Source of the DNA: a virus
IMG/VR virus record: IMGVR_UViG_3300029448_008119
Coordinates: 28,313 to 92,312 of that record
Reading direction: 5' to 3' (one strand)
DNA: 64,000 bases
Below the pieces are notes generated by a model. It was not told the DNA's origin. It saw only the letters and a list, made by a program, of their open reading frames with translations, and made no database searches. Shown one piece after another: positions 28,764 to 64,000 of the stretch (within the stretch, counting starts at the first letter, position 1; each line of letters begins with the position of its first letter). Both the position numbers and the translations under genes were made by a program.

Positions 28764-29021
28764 ATGGAACAATTCTTAGGTTTGGTATATACAATATGCT
28801 TTAGTACTTGCATTTGGCCGCAAATAATTAAAAGCGTAAAAACAAAAAAAGTAGAAGATGTTAGCATCTCTCTCTTTATTCTTTCTATTGTCGGATACGT
28901 GTCCGCTATATCTTACACTATACTAAGGGTAGGCTTTGATTTTTGGTGGTTGATAAATTATTGTTTGAGCTTATTATCAGCTATAATCATGGTTATACTA
29001 TGGTTTAGATATAAGAAATGA
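28764..29021 (+). CDS. SemiSWEET / PQ-loop membrane transporter
   Basis: 85 residues with three membrane helices and the PQ motif in the first (CIWPQIIKSVKTKKVEDVS), followed by SISLFILSIVGYVSAISY. This is a single triple-helix bundle of the SWEET/PQ-loop family; bacterial SemiSWEETs of this size dimerise to move sugars across the inner membrane. It leads the surface-sugar cassette and overlaps by four bases the aminotransferase gene. Transport of a sugar used or made by the cassette is an inference. Confidence 0.75.
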   Translation: MEQFLGLVYTICFSTCIWPQIIKSVKTKKVEDVSISLFILSIVGYVSAISYTILRVGFDFWWLINYCLSLLSAIIMVILWFRYKK

Positions 29022-30106
29022 AAATACCAATTTATAAACCCTGGATAACTAAAACAGAAAAAAATATACTGCAAGATGCCATAGACTCAGGGTGGTTTTC
29101 TTCTATTGGTAAATATATAAATTTATTTGAAGATAAATTTAGTGAATTTATTGAATGCAAATATTCTGTAGCATTGAATAACGGTACCTCTGCTTGTCAT
29201 TTATCTTTATTGAGTAGTGGTATTAAAAGCGGAGACGAGGTCATAGTACCAGCATCAACTTTTATTGCTTGTCCAAATTCAGTTAAATATTGCGGCGCAG
29301 TACCCGTAATTGCTGATGTAGATAAAGATACTTGGAACATATCTCTTAATGAAATAAAAAAGAAAAAAACAGAAAAAACAAAAGCTGTTTTTCTGGTTCA
29401 TATGCTTGGTAACCCCTGTGATCAAGAAATATATGACTGGTGTGAAGAAAACAATATTCTATGTATAGAAGATGCTTGTGAATCTATAGGAGCCTCTTTG
29501 AATGAAAAAAAAACTGGTACCCTAGGTAGCTGTGGGGCGTTTAGCTTTTTTGGCAATAAAAATCTTACAACAGGAGAGGGCGGAATGTTGACAACTAACG
29601 ACAAAACAATCTTTCAAAAAGCCAAGTATTTAAGGGGCCAAGCCCAAGACTCAACATATCGTCACGGAGACATAGGGTACAATTACAGAATGACGAATAT
29701 ACAAGCAGCTTTGGGCTATAGTCAAATGTTGAGGATTCAAGAAATTATGTCCGAAAAAGATAGAGTCTTTAATTGTTATAAAAAAAATCTAGAATCTCTT
29801 GTTGGTCAGGATTCATTTAAAATTCAAAAAACTACTGAAAATTCAAAACACGCCAATTGGATGTTTGCTATATATTCCAAGAAAAAAGATAATATTAAAA
29901 ATGTTTTAAATAAAAATGGAGTAGACACAAGGCCAATGTTCTACCCCGTAAACTCCATGAATCCTTATCTGTCTGAGGAGGTTCATCGCGTAGCTGGTGA
30001 TTTAAGCTCTAGGGTAATTATGCTTCCGTCATATCCTGAATTAAAAGATAGCCAGATTGAGAAAATATGCGAATTAGTAAAGGATTCTAATGGAAAAAAT
30101 ATCTAA
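29018..30106 (+). CDS. DegT/DnrJ/EryC1 sugar aminotransferase, perosamine-synthase-like
   Basis: 362 residues, normal for the family. PLP enzyme: the catalytic lysine is in SFFGNKNLTTGEGGML, and the cofactor-binding ALNNGTSACHLSL and EDACESIGA stretches are present. The N-terminus (IPIYKPWITKTEKNILQDAI, SGWFSSIGKYI) resembles GDP-perosamine synthases (RfbE/Per), which convert GDP-4-keto-6-deoxymannose with glutamate to GDP-perosamine. The GDP-mannose dehydratase that makes this substrate is encoded at 31982, supporting the assignment. Overlaps the genes on both sides. Confidence 0.8.
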   Translation: MKIPIYKPWITKTEKNILQDAIDSGWFSSIGKYINLFEDKFSEFIECKYSVALNNGTSACHLSLLSSGIKSGDEVIVPASTFIACPNSVKYCGAVPVIADVDKDTWNISLNEIKKKKTEKTKAVFLVHMLGNPCDQEIYDWCEENNILCIEDACESIGASLNEKKTGTLGSCGAFSFFGNKNLTTGEGGMLTTNDKTIFQKAKYLRGQAQDSTYRHGDIGYNYRMTNIQAALGYSQMLRIQEIMSEKDRVFNCYKKNLESLVGQDSFKIQKTTENSKHANWMFAIYSKKKDNIKNVLNKNGVDTRPMFYPVNSMNPYLSEEVHRVAGDLSSRVIMLPSYPELKDSQIEKICELVKDSNGKNI

Positions 30107-30758
30107 AACACTAATTAACAATTATGTCTTAGATTTGGACGGTATACACATCTTAGAATGTGGCGCTTATGATGGCTCAGAAACAAAAAGCCTTAGAGGT
30201 AAGCATAACTGTTGGTATTTAGAGCCCGACAAAGACTTATTTAATAAGTTAAACCTAGATACAGATAATTGTCTAAACTTAGCTTTATCAGATAAAGACG
30301 GTGAAGCTGAACTTAAGGTAACTAACATTCCTGGTAATTCTAGCATAGGTCATAACGCCAAACATCTTGAAGATATAAGAATAGTTGATACAGTAAAGAT
30401 TAATACAATATCATATAAGACTCTCCTTGATAAACTCCAGATAAAAAAAATCAACATTCTTATATTAGATGTCGAAGGCCATGAAGATATTATATTAAAT
30501 AATATTTTTTCAAGTTTAGATCAGGATAGTTGGCCAGACGTATTATGCGTTGAGTGTGGATATGATTGGAAGTCCAGGCAAAAAATTATTCTAGATGCTG
30601 GATATAGTCAGGATTTTTACTCTTACAACAATTGTTTTTTTAGTAATGGAAAACTTCAAATAAATAAAGAGTCCGTGAAAAAAACAAATTTAAACAACCA
30701 GAATTTTATTTTTCAAAAAAAATTAATTTATGAAAATGATTGTCAGGAATATAAATAA
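30090..30758 (+). CDS. FkbM-family methyltransferase
   Basis: 222 residues. SAM-binding motif I is ILECGAYDGSETKSL, followed by WYLEPDKDLF and the acidic INILILDVEGHEDIIL typical of FkbM-type O-methyltransferases, which often methylate sugars. An AAAGGA ribosome site precedes the ATG, which lies inside the aminotransferase gene. A role in O-methylating the cassette sugar or glycan is likely but inferred. Confidence 0.78.
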   Translation: MEKISKTLINNYVLDLDGIHILECGAYDGSETKSLRGKHNCWYLEPDKDLFNKLNLDTDNCLNLALSDKDGEAELKVTNIPGNSSIGHNAKHLEDIRIVDTVKINTISYKTLLDKLQIKKINILILDVEGHEDIILNNIFSSLDQDSWPDVLCVECGYDWKSRQKIILDAGYSQDFYSYNNCFFSNGKLQINKESVKKTNLNNQNFIFQKKLIYENDCQEYK

Positions 30759-31155
30759 ACAAAATAAAGATTTAAAAATCTTTGTGGATAATTTATCAAT
30801 ATCATCTGATACTTTTACTTATTTTAAATCAAGATGTTTCGACGCATTAGATAATCACACACTTACAGCCTTGGGTTATGTTAAGAACAGTCCAGTAGCT
30901 TATGGCCATTTAGACAAGGATGGCGATACTGTTTGGTTGGGTATTTGTGTCGTAGGCTCGGAAGTTGGTAAGGGTTACGGAAAGAAAATGATGGAGTACT
31001 TAACTGAATATGCCGATAAAAATAAAATAAATTTAAAATTATCAGTGCATAGATTTAATATACAAGCAGTAAACCTATACAAAAAATTTAATTTTATAAA
31101 AACATCAGAGTCTGATAAAAGTTTTTATTTTACCAGGCCTTATTTAAACAATTAA
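30730..31155 (+). CDS. GNAT-family N-acetyltransferase
   Basis: 141 residues. The acetyl-CoA pyrophosphate loop is visible (VVGSEVGKGYGKKMMEYL), followed by the C-terminal SVHRFNIQAVNLYKKFNF of the GNAT fold. Encoded between a sugar aminotransferase/methyltransferase pair and a glycosyltransferase, it is well placed to N-acetylate the 4-amino group of perosamine. Overlaps the FkbM gene by 29 bases. Confidence 0.75.
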   Translation: MKMIVRNINKQNKDLKIFVDNLSISSDTFTYFKSRCFDALDNHTLTALGYVKNSPVAYGHLDKDGDTVWLGICVVGSEVGKGYGKKMMEYLTEYADKNKINLKLSVHRFNIQAVNLYKKFNFIKTSESDKSFYFTRPYLNN

Positions 31156-31164
31156 TCACACAAT

Positions 31165-31980
31165 ATGAAAAATATAGCAGTATGTTCTCTTTTCAAGGAT
31201 TCCGTCTCTTGGCACGGAATTCAAACAGATCAAGTTAATAAGTTTTTTGAAACCATGGACACGCAAAAACAGAATTTAAGCGAAAACTTTGATATATCTA
31301 TAAGTGTTTTAGAAAACAATTCTGCCGACGATACAGAAAAACACATTAGAGCTAATCAAAAAAAATACGAGAATGTTCATTTTTTAAAATTAAGTGATAG
31401 TTTAAACCTAGGGGAAGTAAGGTCTGTCTCATCCTCAGAAAGAATTAATGCTCTCGGTTTTTTGGCTAATTTGCTTTTTTCTTTTGCCAAGAATTTTAAT
31501 TCAGAGTATATTTTATGGACAGAGTCAGATTTAATTTTTCCACAAAAAGATACAATAAATCAGTTGGTTGAAAAAATGGAATCTGATAAAAGCATTTCGG
31601 CAATTTCCCCAGTTATATTTTTTGATGCCGATATGTCGGAAAACGGCAACTTCAAATGTGACAGTAATGGCAAACTTTCAAAGGGCTATAAATATTTTTA
31701 TGACACATGGGCATATGAAAACAAAAACACTTCTACCTGGACAAACAACCCCCCATACAATATAGAATATGCGCTCACAAAAGAAAGATATATTGAAATG
31801 AATGCTGTTGGCTCCTCTTGTCTGTTTAGGACCGCTGATGTTAAAGATATAAGTTTTGATGATCAAGCCTTCAAAGGAATATGTTCTAAAATTATTTCAA
31901 ATGGTGGTAAAATATTTTTAGATAAAGAACTAGAAATATTACATCCAACAAATTACTATATGAAACAAAGACTTATTTAA
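31165..31980 (+). CDS. Glycosyltransferase, GT-A type
   Basis: 271 residues. An N-terminal nucleotide-sugar domain (ISVLENNSADDTEKHI) leads to YILWTESDLIFPQKD, where ESD takes the place of the metal-binding DxD motif. The downstream region (NAVGSSCLFRTADVKDISFD) resembles the Anp1/GT62-like and GT2 families. It would transfer a nucleotide-activated sugar, most simply the perosamine derivative made by neighbouring genes. Two bases from the dehydratase gene. Confidence 0.7.
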   Translation: MKNIAVCSLFKDSVSWHGIQTDQVNKFFETMDTQKQNLSENFDISISVLENNSADDTEKHIRANQKKYENVHFLKLSDSLNLGEVRSVSSSERINALGFLANLLFSFAKNFNSEYILWTESDLIFPQKDTINQLVEKMESDKSISAISPVIFFDADMSENGNFKCDSNGKLSKGYKYFYDTWAYENKNTSTWTNNPPYNIEYALTKERYIEMNAVGSSCLFRTADVKDISFDDQAFKGICSKIISNGGKIFLDKELEILHPTNYYMKQRLI

Positions 31981-31981
31981 T

Positions 31982-33028
31982 ATGAAAAAAGTAATAATTA
32001 CAGGAGTAACGGGTCAAGTTGGATCCTATATGGTTGACTATCTTTTAGCAAATACTGATTATAAAATCTACGGGGCAATTCGTAGACTCAGTGTTCCAAA
32101 TCATAGAAACATTGAACATGTTGACTCAGACAGGTTTGAATTTATCGAAATGGACTTGGGTGATGAGCATAGCATTTTTGCTATAATTCAAGACATTAAA
32201 CCAGATTATTTTATAAATTTTGCAGCTAATTCTTTTGTTGGCGGCAGTTGGCACATGCCAGTTAATCATTTTGATACGAACGCTCTTGGTGTCATGCGAC
32301 AGCTTGAAGCTATTCGTAAAATTTGTCCAAAGTGTCGTTATTATAACGCAGGATCTTCAGAAGAATTTGGCGATGTAGCATATAGCCCACAAGACTTAAA
32401 CCACCCGCCAAGACCAAGAAGCCCATATGGAGCATCTAAAGTTGCCGCTAGGCAGATAGTTAAGGTTTGGAGAGATTCTTATAACTTATTTGCAATCCAA
32501 GGTTATCTTTTTAATCATGAATCAGAACGTCGTGGTGAAGAATTTGTAACTCGAAAAATAACAAAAAATGTAGCACGAATCGCGAAATCTATACAACAAG
32601 GAAATGACGATTTTGAACCTCTCGAACTTGGTAATGTAGACGCTAAGAGAGACTGGAGTCATGCAGAAGACTTTGTAGAAGCGGTTTGGCTAATGTTAAA
32701 CGAAGAAAGCCCGAAGGATTATCTACTTGCTTCTGGAGAAACTCACAGCGTTAGAGAGTTTGTTGAGCTTGCTTTTGATAATGCTGGCTTAGAAGGTTAT
32801 TGGTCTGGCGAAGGAGTTGATGAAGTTTACAAACTAAGAGGAGAAGTCCTCGCAGATATTACTCTAATGAAAGTAAATCCTAATTTTTATCGCCCAGCAG
32901 AGGTTGATTTGCTTCTTGGAGACCCTTCTGAGGCAGAAAAAGAATTAGGCTGGAAGAAAAAGGTTGACTTTAAATCATTGGTATGCAGAATGTGCGAACA
33001 TGACTTTAAAGAAATTAACGCCACATAG
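31982..33028 (+). CDS. gmd: GDP-mannose 4,6-dehydratase
   Basis: 348 residues. Extended short-chain dehydrogenase with the NAD(P)-binding GVTGQVGSYMVDYL, the catalytic SPYGASKVAAR (YxxxK), and the GMD phrase NVDAKRDWSHAEDFVEAVW. It converts GDP-D-mannose to GDP-4-keto-6-deoxymannose, the branch point to GDP-perosamine, GDP-rhamnose and GDP-fucose. With no epimerase/reductase seen and a PLP aminotransferase three genes upstream, the perosamine branch is favoured. GMD is also virus-encoded in chloroviruses. Confidence 0.9.
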   Translation: MKKVIITGVTGQVGSYMVDYLLANTDYKIYGAIRRLSVPNHRNIEHVDSDRFEFIEMDLGDEHSIFAIIQDIKPDYFINFAANSFVGGSWHMPVNHFDTNALGVMRQLEAIRKICPKCRYYNAGSSEEFGDVAYSPQDLNHPPRPRSPYGASKVAARQIVKVWRDSYNLFAIQGYLFNHESERRGEEFVTRKITKNVARIAKSIQQGNDDFEPLELGNVDAKRDWSHAEDFVEAVWLMLNEESPKDYLLASGETHSVREFVELAFDNAGLEGYWSGEGVDEVYKLRGEVLADITLMKVNPNFYRPAEVDLLLGDPSEAEKELGWKKKVDFKSLVCRMCEHDFKEINAT

Positions 33029-60805: not shown

Positions 60806-61729
60806 TTATTGGTAATGTACAGACCAATTACCCCTTGCATCGCCCGTAAGTGTATCTTTATGGGCAAGTGCGGCTGCCGTCATTCCGCCATTCCTAGCGA
60901 CATTGACAAACCCACCATTAGCTCCAGCAGCTACAAGAGCGGCCAATAAATCCTCTACAACAGCAGCACTAAAATCATTGCCGTCTGCTATTAATTTTTT
61001 AAGAGAAGCTGGTAAAGTGGTTCCAGCCCAACCAGTTAGATTGTTGCCAAAGCACGAAAATGTGTGCAGACTCGTATTGTTAGCTAAATCTGGAATAGAT
61101 CCAGTTAAATCATTTGAATTGCACCACATCTCAAGCAAACTTACGTTTGTCGATGTAGAAACAATTTCTCCAGTTAAATTATTTGATGCAGTATCAAACC
61201 ATTTCAATGCAGTATTATTAGTAATCGAAGGCATGGCTCCAGTAAAAGAATTACGATCAAGTTGTAAATCTTCTAAGTATACGTTGGAATCTACATTAGG
61301 GCAGGTTCCTGTAAAATTACTATTATGCAAGAATATACCCCTCATCTGAGGGCTCGAAGAAAAATCTGGAGCTGATGGGTTAGTCAGATTGTTGTCTGAA
61401 ACATCATAATATCTAAAATTACTCGTAGCAGGTGGCACTGGTGCGTCACCAGTAAAATTATTAAATGGTACATTGAAAGCATGCATATTAAGTTGTCCAC
61501 TTATCACTGGAATAGAACCAGTAATTGCATTTTGATCAGCTCTAAATTTATGATACTGCTTATTGCTCATATCCATATCCAACGCTGTGACGCCTTGATT
61601 GACCACTCTAAAGTCGGTTAAGTTGGTGAACTTAGTTAACTGCATAGTCCCTCGAAGTCTTGAGCCTCCAGGTCTAGTAATATGCAATTGGGTTATGTTT
61701 TCTGGATTATCTATCGATACTCTTGGCAT
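60806..61729 (-). CDS. Leucine-rich-repeat protein (plant-type LTGxIP repeats)
   Basis: 307 residues. About ten LRR units of ~22 residues with the phrase NxLTGxIP (NALKWF... NNLTGEI, NDLTGSIPDLANNTSLHTFS, NNLTGWAG), a type common in plants and in bacterial and phage surface proteins. No signal peptide or membrane segment, so it is probably a virion (fibre tip) protein rather than secreted. The end ARGNWSVHYQ is polar. It has its own GTG-TAAATA promoter, consistent with late expression. Confidence 0.78.
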   Translation of the reverse strand: MPRVSIDNPENITQLHITRPGGSRLRGTMQLTKFTNLTDFRVVNQGVTALDMDMSNKQYHKFRADQNAITGSIPVISGQLNMHAFNVPFNNFTGDAPVPPATSNFRYYDVSDNNLTNPSAPDFSSSPQMRGIFLHNSNFTGTCPNVDSNVYLEDLQLDRNSFTGAMPSITNNTALKWFDTASNNLTGEIVSTSTNVSLLEMWCNSNDLTGSIPDLANNTSLHTFSCFGNNLTGWAGTTLPASLKKLIADGNDFSAAVVEDLLAALVAAGANGGFVNVARNGGMTAAALAHKDTLTGDARGNWSVHYQ

Positions 61730-61872: not shown

Positions 61873-63021
61873 TTAAAAATTCCAACGATATCCAACAAAT
61901 GCCTTGTTTTTAAATACGTCGGCGTCTTTATTCAATAGATGCAGGCCTTGGTAACCAATTTCAGCATAGTGACTCTCGTTATACTTCCAAGAAAAAGTTA
62001 TACTCGACATAAACACTTCTTCTTCACGTTCTAATCCAGCGTTATACCTATTACCAATATCTTTGTATGAGGTAAGAAGATGAGCACCCATTACGTTTAC
62101 TTCAAGTTTTGGTGTGATTGGGTATTTCATCATAAGAGATGTTTTTAAATTCTCTTTCATGTTCCAATATGCTACAGATGAATCTAGCACTTCATACACG
62201 GTGCCTAATAAAATCACTGTGCCTTTTTCGGTAAAGTATGTTATATTTGCCCCATACGTGGGAGTTGAATATTCAGTTAGTGTGCCATATTGATCTTCTA
62301 TCAAGGCGTCGATTATACCATAGTTTATTTTTAGAACAGTTGATGGGTTCATTATATACGAAAACTGCGCATAATACATATCAGTATCAATTGCCCCACG
62401 AACTCCACTATAATCTAAAAATGATTTCTTGCCTATTAATTCTAGAATAAAACGCTTGCCAAGAATTTGTTCTGCGCCAAACGTAAATGCATCTTTGGTG
62501 AAGTCGCCATTGGTTAATTCGTCACCAGCTCCTACGGGCAGGTTTTCTGACCAACGTTTGATATGGTTTTCATAACCGCCTTTAAGTTTTAAGAGATGCC
62601 GAGGTTTCCACGTTAGCATGTACGAACTCTTATATATAAAATAAGTTACATCTAGATCGTCATCAATGTCACTTGGCTCCCTTTCTAAATGAGAGAATGA
62701 ATCGGTAGAATTAAGAATAAGCTTTGGTGTTATTTCGTATTGACCTCTCATGCCAATATTACCAAATATTAATGTTTTATTATCAACGCTTCTGTGTCTT
62801 ATTTCTGGTTGAGCTTTTAGATTTATTAAGTCTCTAAAGAACTTGCCCTCTACTCCTAGCGATTGGCTGAAGTAAAAAGTTGATGTTTGGTTGGGCGTCC
62901 CAGCCGCCCTCATAAAAACATTATCGTCGTAGAATATTCTACTGAATGAAGTCAGTTTAAACTTCTTTTCTGCGTAGAGGGTTGATGCTACTAATAATAA
63001 AACTATAAGAAACTTATGCAT
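61873..63021 (-). CDS. Outer-membrane beta-barrel protein
   Basis: 382 residues from ATG 63021 (a TTG at 63033 would add four). Signal peptide MHKFLIVLLLVASTLYA with cleavage before EKK. The mature part is a succession of amphipathic strands with aromatic ends (SRIFYDDNVFMRAAG near the front, HYAEIGYQGLHLL near the end) and finishes FVGYRWNF: a terminal Phe, the signal for Bam-dependent insertion. This looks like a host-derived porin-like protein. Start overlaps the PEP-CTERM gene stop (ATGCATAA). A phage gene for an outer-membrane protein could mask or replace a receptor. Confidence 0.78.
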   Translation of the reverse strand: MHKFLIVLLLVASTLYAEKKFKLTSFSRIFYDDNVFMRAAGTPNQTSTFYFSQSLGVEGKFFRDLINLKAQPEIRHRSVDNKTLIFGNIGMRGQYEITPKLILNSTDSFSHLEREPSDIDDDLDVTYFIYKSSYMLTWKPRHLLKLKGGYENHIKRWSENLPVGAGDELTNGDFTKDAFTFGAEQILGKRFILELIGKKSFLDYSGVRGAIDTDMYYAQFSYIMNPSTVLKINYGIIDALIEDQYGTLTEYSTPTYGANITYFTEKGTVILLGTVYEVLDSSVAYWNMKENLKTSLMMKYPITPKLEVNVMGAHLLTSYKDIGNRYNAGLEREEEVFMSSITFSWKYNESHYAEIGYQGLHLLNKDADVFKNKAFVGYRWNF

Positions 63022-63667
63022 TTCTTCTGCCAATTGCTACATACAAGAATGCAAAACAACACGCAATGAGAGTGAAGATTGATGGTTCGGGTATTGTTGC
63101 AGATGAGATATAACCAGGCCCTGTAATATTTACATCCATGTCACCAAAGGCTTCATGGTCAAAAGAAGTAAACACAATAGTATACTCTACATCTTTTTCT
63201 AAATCAAATGAGCCATAGAATGCTCCAGGTTGTCCAACAAATGTTGGTGTTCCACCTTCACCCTCTGATGGGCCGCTTTGTGGTACGCCACCTGTAAAAC
63301 CAGTATCAGTTCCATTATTGAATCCCCAAGGTGCACTTATGATAAGCTGTTGAGGTGGTTCTTGATAAATCAATATTTGTGTATCTGTTGTTGCACCTTC
63401 AAGACCAATTAAGCTACTGGCATAGTTATCAAAAAGATAGCTTCCTGCTTTAGTCGGTGTAGCAATAAACTCTTGATAATATGTTTTATTAGTTTCTGTT
63501 TGATTGCCCGACAAGCCAAAACCTTCAACATACTTTGTTAAGTTAAATTCTACGTGGAGATCGTAGCCAATTAAATCGCCGCTAGCAAATGGTTTGTCTA
63601 AACCATCTATGTCGCCATAAGCGAATGAAGATGCAATAAGTAGTAGTAATGTAATCAGTTTTTTCAT
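63014..63667 (-). CDS. Secreted protein with PEP-CTERM sorting tail
   Basis: 217 residues. Signal peptide (MKKLITLLLLIASSFAYG), a beta-rich body, and a C-terminal tail made of IPEPS, a hydrophobic helix (IFTLIACCFAFLYVAI) and GRRNA. This is the PEP-CTERM signal that is recognised and cut by exosortase in Gram-negative bacteria with exopolysaccharide or extracellular matrix. The body contains no recognised enzyme. It is the second gene of an operon whose next gene encodes an outer-membrane barrel. A phage gene with this signal would depend on a host exosortase. Confidence 0.8.
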   Translation of the reverse strand: MKKLITLLLLIASSFAYGDIDGLDKPFASGDLIGYDLHVEFNLTKYVEGFGLSGNQTETNKTYYQEFIATPTKAGSYLFDNYASSLIGLEGATTDTQILIYQEPPQQLIISAPWGFNNGTDTGFTGGVPQSGPSEGEGGTPTFVGQPGAFYGSFDLEKDVEYTIVFTSFDHEAFGDMDVNITGPGYISSATIPEPSIFTLIACCFAFLYVAIGRRNA

Positions 63668-63837
63668 TTTTTAAATATATTTTTTATAAAGTTGATTGCG
63701 TCTCCTATTAAGCCAAAAAATCCAGATTTTTTTTCGCCTTTGGGTAGAATGTGAAACACGATAGATAAAATACCTATTGTGGCTATTGTTATTTTAAGTA
63801 AATTGCCTTTTGCTAATTCTATTATTTCTTGTATCAT
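63664..63837 (-). CDS. Small membrane protein (57 aa)
   Basis: ATG at 63837 opens a 57-residue frame starting MIQEIIELAKGNLLKITIAT, with one membrane segment (ITIATIGILSIVFHIL) followed by an amphipathic basic end (GDAINFIKNIFKK). Its stop overlaps the ATG of the PEP-CTERM gene (ATGA). It could be a small holin-like protein or a partner of the secreted proteins. Confidence 0.55.
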   Translation of the reverse strand: MIQEIIELAKGNLLKITIATIGILSIVFHILPKGEKKSGFFGLIGDAINFIKNIFKK

Positions 63838-63841
63838 TTTT

Positions 63842-64000
63842 TTATGTGGTTAAAGGTCCAGATGGAGATACTACGATAGCATCGTCTGGTGTTAATACTG
63901 CTGGAAGTTCCGCCTCAATAATTTCTCCAGCGTCATTGCTTTCCATGTCTGAGTGCGGTTTAATTGGGTCTAGTTCGTCTATTGAAGGCTCTTCTGCCTC
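63842..64000 (-). CDS. Acidic protein, C-terminal part (runs off right edge)
   Basis: The frame is open from the right edge and ends with TAA at 63842; 52 residues are visible, acidic and Pro-rich (EAEEPSIDELDPIKPHSDME, ending VSPSGPLTT). The 5' end lies outside the window. Its stop is four bases before the next ATG, so it belongs to the same leftward unit. Confidence 0.5.
   Translation of the reverse strand, partial: EAEEPSIDELDPIKPHSDMESNDAGEIIEAELPAVLTPDDAIVVSPSGPLTT

Follow-up and report, generated by a model that had tools for sequence, protein, structure and literature searches.

A PEP-CTERM-type protein encoded within a conserved multi-gene phage module

A gene for a PEP-CTERM-type protein, located near the end of a viral contig, is part of a conserved phage module of four to five genes. 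The module encodes, in this order, an acidic protein, a membrane peptide, one or two PEP-CTERM proteins, and a predicted β-barrel, and it is common to at least two phage types. The uncultured phages carrying it probably encode a substrate of the host exosortase, which would be delivered to the surface beside a phage-made barrel and would serve to change the surface of the infected cell. PEP-CTERM proteins are already known; what appears to be new is a phage-borne copy within a conserved multi-gene phage module.

Bacteria normally use the PEP-CTERM tag as an address label that directs proteins of their own to the cell surface. Many environmental bacteria have exosortase systems, and the functions of the substrates of these systems are poorly known. 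The DNA analysed here, referred to as the window, comprises 64,000 nucleotides and corresponds to bases 28313–92312 of a 92,312-bp IMG/VR contig, with the right end of the window being the end of the contig. A first-pass annotation of the window had recognised the tagged protein and missed the larger context of the conserved module.

The PEP-CTERM-type protein of the window

The PEP-CTERM-type protein comprises 217 amino acids and is encoded on the reverse strand at positions 63014–63667, with an ATG start and a stop codon at 63014–63016. Its N-terminus, MKKLITLLLLIASSFAYG (residues 1–18; 63614–63667, reverse strand), has a KK-hydrophobic-AYG pattern and, judged by eye, resembles a signal peptide. 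The C-terminal sorting-type tail IPEPSIFTLIACCFAFLYVAIGRRNA (63017–63094, reverse strand) consists of PEP, a transmembrane (TM) helix, and a basic end. The TM helix was predicted at residues 190–208. In the AF2 model (pLDDT 68), an N-terminal helix is followed by about ten strands and a C-terminal helix at residues 197–216, and the ectodomain is accordingly modelled as a β-sandwich between two terminal helices. Sequence, TM prediction, and AF2 model agree on PEP, a single TM helix, and basic residues at the extreme C-terminus.

The ectodomain of the window copy contains 0% Cys, 2.9% Lys and Arg, and 21.8% Ser, Thr, and Asn, and shows the poverty in basic residues and cysteine and the richness in Ser, Thr, and Asn by which PEP-CTERM proteins are recognised. 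Across the module, the ectodomains of the PEP proteins lack Cys and contain 1–3% Lys and Arg and 21–28% Ser, Thr, and Asn. This composition is close to that of cellular PEP-CTERM proteins, for which few basic residues and very little Cys have been described (Haft et al. 2006, PMC1569441). The phage proteins also share with this family (PF07589, TIGR02595) the lack of an internal TM helix and the C-terminal arrangement of PEP, TM helix, and basic cluster, and their N-terminus, judged by eye, is signal-like as in the family. Unlike the cellular proteins, the phage copies share their operon with genes for a barrel, a small TM peptide, and an acidic protein, and this operon includes no exosortase gene.

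The genes of the PEP protein and the barrel evolve under purifying selection. The dN/dS ratio of the PEP protein is 0.10–0.48 in eight pairs, and thus its reading frame is not a product of chance. The barrel is strongly conserved, with a dN/dS of 0.035–0.11, and the PEP protein less so.

A fold search of the modelled PEP protein against the PDB returned weak β-sandwich matches, including CBM35 and yeast flocculins, with a best E-value of 2e-3 and a TM-score of about 0.3. As these matches are weak, they give at most a hint of carbohydrate binding. A viral protein (BFVD A0A516MBN4) matches nearly the whole model, with an E-value of 7.5e-9 and TM-scores of 0.57/0.61. It is alike in fold and differs in sequence, with 21% identity.

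Conservation of the module

The survey of the module covered 27 barrel loci, two of which (L009 and L015) start at the barrel and were left out of the upstream count. In every one of the other 25 loci, window included, the barrel gene directly follows a gene whose product ends in a tail with PEP or PES. These 25 loci represent about 17 distinct cases, as some contigs are near-identical (L006/L007/L008, L012/L013/L014, L016/L017, L018/L019/L026, and L021/L023). The search for the gene in related phages, which the first-pass annotation had proposed, was thus positive. The spacing between the PEP-CTERM-type gene and the barrel gene ranges from −49 to +7 nt in the 25 loci. Two complete PEP-type genes are present in four loci (L011, L018, L019, and L026), while in L148 the second one is truncated. 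In every locus with enough sequence, genes for the small peptide and for the acidic protein also lie upstream.

The slot of the PEP protein is occupied by at least two types of ectodomain. In L144 and L145, the arrangement of the module is intact though the barrel is just 26–27% identical to that of the window. That the module is conserved at this level of divergence is a strong argument for a joint function of the four genes.

Comparison of the tail with PEP-CTERM models

The first-pass annotation had identified the tail as a PEP-CTERM signal and had named the PEP-CTERM model as the check. The outcome differs between the window copy and its relatives. The whole window protein matches neither PF07589 (Pfam) nor any NCBIfam model. 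The tail alone reaches 12.7 bits on PF07589 (E-value 0.14), which is below the cut-off of 20.7 bits, and has no match in NCBIfam. The window copy by itself fails the formal model test. The close relatives pass, with 21.8 bits on PF07589 for the L001 protein, which is 77% identical to the PEP protein of the window, and 21.9 and 23.5 bits for the relatives in L005 and L026, respectively. L026 also encodes a second PEP protein, which scores 21.1 on TIGR02595, above the cut-off of 16. These scores of the relatives support an assignment of the window protein to the PEP-CTERM type.

When whole records were scanned with PF07589, 12 of 15 viral records matched at E ≤ 0.05, six of them above the curated cut-off. 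After conversion of the contig coordinates, all 14 matched places were found to lie in module genes. Of the three records without a match, L002 contains a gene truncated ahead of the tail, L009 starts at the barrel, and L016 has PES. According to Haft et al. (PMC1569441), PF07589 recognises only 22% of the instances found by the model of these authors.

In the tails encoded by L016:7311-7958, L017:2277-2924, and L011:8007-8567, the last being the second protein of L011, PES replaces PEP. The exact PEP motif is therefore not always kept. With these PES copies, and with a window copy that scores below the model cut-offs, the phage proteins depart from the norm of the PEP-CTERM family. The PES copy of L011 also has a weaker basic end.

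The tail could be a mere PEP-CTERM-like anchor that keeps the protein in the inner membrane, facing the periplasm, without the involvement of an exosortase, for example to block the entry of DNA from other phages. The score of the window tail below the cut-off, the three PES variants, and the phage records tested, which are without exosortase, are in line with such an anchor. However, several tails pass curated PEP-CTERM models, the ectodomains are of the cellular type in their composition, and PEP is present in at least one gene at 23 of the 25 module loci despite otherwise diverged ectodomains. An anchor of this kind is considered quite improbable, and processing of the tail by an exosortase is the preferred reading.

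Barrel, membrane peptide, and acidic protein

The barrel gene (61873–63021, reverse strand, ATG at 63021) overlaps the PEP-CTERM ORF by 8 nt and encodes a protein of 382 amino acids with about 25 viral relatives. A signal-like start, a C-terminal Phe, and long regular strands in an AF2 model of low confidence (pLDDT 44) lead to its prediction as an outer-membrane β-barrel. With BBP2_2 proteins (PF10082) and PEP-CTERM-system-associated outer-membrane proteins, it shares a length of about 380–490 amino acids, the signal-like start, the richness in strands, and the aromatic C-terminus. A further feature in common with BBP2_2-type proteins is a YDDN/YTDN-type motif close to the N-terminus of the mature protein. 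The phage barrel differs in being a stand-alone phage gene and in a similarity that remains sub-threshold. The barrel of the window does not match PF10082 (cut-off 23.7 bits), that of L026 reaches 13.3 bits, and hhalign comparisons with barrels of exosortase loci and of the BBP2 type gave probabilities of 1–19%. The protein is therefore described as a predicted barrel and is not assigned to BBP2. Homology to XrtA-locus barrels was also considered and was not supported, and profile comparisons with exosortase-locus barrels of Porticoccaceae were negative or weak.

The small peptide of 57 amino acids is encoded at 63664–63837 on the reverse strand and overlaps the start of the PEP-CTERM gene by 4 nt. 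It has a single TM helix, predicted at residues 13–31, and a basic amphipathic C-terminus (GFFGLIGDAINFIKNIFKK). Across the loci, it comprises 57–61 amino acids and is kept wherever enough upstream sequence exists. The large acidic protein is represented in the window by the translation of its 3′ end (63842–64000, reverse strand), the last 52 codons (...VLTPDDAIVVSPSGPLTT), which extends to the contig end. Full-length relatives comprise 435–558 amino acids, about one third of which are Asp and Glu. The acidic protein of L014 belongs to no family in Pfam or PHROGs. A KKxGFF motif is common to the small peptide and the acidic protein. Repeated KKKKxGFF..GGDDEE motifs were observed in the acidic proteins (L026:450-2069, L014:5879-7186, and relatives) and are echoed in the 57-aa peptide.

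The module could also be a lysis or release device that opens or loosens the envelope or the polysaccharide at the end of infection, either replacing spanins or acting beside them. In that case, the peptide and the acidic protein would act at the inner membrane and in the periplasm, and the outer membrane would be the site of action of the barrel and the PEP protein. Several features fit a role in release: the tightly packed gene block joins an amphipathic inner-membrane peptide with an outer-membrane protein, the basic amphipathic C-terminus of the peptide resembles membrane-active peptides in its sequence, and the KKxGFF motif is shared by peptide and acidic protein. Nevertheless, a sorting tag processed by the host would be an odd part for lysis. 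Furthermore, the module adjoins replication genes in T4-like contigs, and in the contig G002 the module is far away from an ORF that is lysozyme-like by sequence (L064:17151). A function in release, the main rival reading, is therefore regarded as unlikely, and a change of the cell surface is preferred.

Phage origin and distribution

The contig of the window contains genes for a terminase, a tape measure protein, a J-type host specificity protein, and a minor tail protein. The same PEP gene was found inside contigs of 16–142 kb, between phage genes, and the module as a whole has phage genes for tails or replication on its flanks. In the window, less than 1 kb separates the PEP gene from the contig end, and the first-pass annotation, which had taken the gene to be phage-borne, had named a chimeric join to host DNA as the finding that would speak against it. 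An origin from host DNA joined to the contig, or from a mis-binned host fragment, is exceedingly improbable. The same gene is internal in many independent phage contigs, and the first gene of the module, encoding the acidic protein, persists for 52 codons before the contig end of the window, which argues against a chimeric end. Besides a phage contig in the metagenome-assembled genome (MAG) G001, 369 Gammaproteobacteria contained no cellular relative of the barrel or the PEP protein, and 398 Pseudomonadota genomes none of the barrel. The gene is therefore treated as phage-borne, as first annotated.

Their gene content places the carriers of the module in at least two unrelated types of phage, a lambda-tailed type, to which the window belongs, and a T4-like type. 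Seven records, including that of the window, encode the lambda-L-type minor tail protein phrog_18. Other module records encode a T4-like gp32, a clamp loader, and a 'peptidase' that is about 33% identical to those of T4-like cyanophages. The gp23 model PF07068 had no match in the module records, nor in the controls, and is thus uninformative. Contig G002, with a length of 141.7 kb, has ends that are 84% identical over 676 bp; as this similarity may be due to tail-fibre paralogy, neither circular closure nor completeness is claimed.

Near the module, the flanks in L007, L011, and L014 contain arrays of related tail-fibre-like genes ('M(A/S/P)DKKISELTELT...'), which are apparently tandem duplicates. 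In the window, a leucine-rich-repeat-type protein is encoded at 60806–61729, between the module and the tail-tip genes (LRR_1 18.1 bits, cut-off 20.6). This gene is also present in L004, and other genes take its place in most relatives.

The first-pass annotation had called the gene an unusual phage cargo, and the database searches agree. No relative of the three PEP types or of the barrel was found in 50,697 GenBank phage records, and the module proteins have no match in PHROGs. A search of open-access papers returned no earlier report of phage-encoded PEP-CTERM proteins.

Exosortase and host

A search for exosortase (PF09721) was negative in 22 viral records, including the 92-kb contig of the window and the 141.7-kb contig, and positive in the control genome; the viral records are partly fragments, and an exosortase elsewhere in the phage genomes is possible. 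With 22 phage records lacking the enzyme, the tag would have to be processed by an exosortase of the host. The tie to an exosortase-bearing host, drawn in the first-pass annotation, is in this respect sound, and it does not extend to the identity of the host. The carriers of the module should infect exosortase-positive bacteria, and the module may in this way help in host prediction.

Among the cellular genomes searched, the barrel has a sole match, on a T4-like phage contig of 12 kb that is part of a Porticoccaceae MAG (G001). The GTDB MAG 'Porticoccaceae bacterium NP1052' includes L026 (PCCK01000047.1), a T4-like contig of phage origin. A single binned phage contig gives weak evidence, and no host is therefore named. 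Exosortase is present in 34 of the 98 Porticoccaceae genomes searched, and PEP-CTERM proteins were detected in 11 of 12 exosortase-positive genomes tested. The PEPS-x-[YF] pattern, found in the tails of the commonest phage type, is absent from all ten tails that were extracted from these Porticoccaceae genomes. For the exosortase of MAG G001, the nearest match is XrtC of VPDSG-CTERM, with 271 bits at a cut-off of 300. An assignment of the host to Porticoccaceae through this MAG was rejected, as the contig carrying the exosortase (C82) contains, besides the gene for the XrtC-like enzyme, mainly polysaccharide genes and may have been binned with the MAG in error.

Proposed mechanism and purpose

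In the proposed mechanism, a compact operon would supply, on infection, the acidic protein with its KKKGFF motifs, the small inner-membrane peptide, the PEP protein or proteins, and the barrel. One or two PEP-tailed β-sandwich proteins would be exported by Sec and kept in the inner membrane by their tails until the host exosortase cuts at PEP. The cleaved protein would then be passed to the outer surface or the polysaccharide layer. The co-translated phage barrel would be located in the outer membrane and work with the PEP protein, and the infected cell would display a phage-made surface protein. We infer export, anchoring, cleavage, and surface delivery from the established reading of PEP-CTERM proteins. 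The PEP protein and the barrel are probably partners at the outer membrane.

The first-pass annotation had suggested that the host envelope is altered during infection, for instance to exclude competing phages. An altered envelope fits the signal-like start, the sorting tag, and the co-encoded barrel, and the exclusion of competing phages by the module is speculation. As for the benefit to the phage, an altered surface is the first choice, speculative as it is: it may repel further virions, or spare the progeny from sticking to the dying host or its polysaccharide. In this regard, the module resembles phage surface-altering morons, such as superinfection-exclusion and serotype-converting genes, which are likewise carried by phages and expected to alter the envelope of the host. 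To our knowledge, no such moron uses the PEP-CTERM/exosortase route, and a search of open-access papers returned none.

A bolder and doubtful possibility is that the four or five proteins form a trans-envelope apparatus, shared by unrelated phages, with a surface part installed by the host exosortase. This would be a new exclusion or release machine. The conservation of the module in two phage types suggests that the exosortase sorting route matters during infection. For exosortase research, the module provides a compact and testable set of a client and its partners.

The window also contains a block of genes of the surface-sugar type at 29018–33028, which, judged from sequence, includes aminotransferase-, methyltransferase-, glycosyltransferase-, and GDP-mannose dehydratase-like genes. 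This block is consistent with an interest of the phage in the surface polysaccharide of its host.
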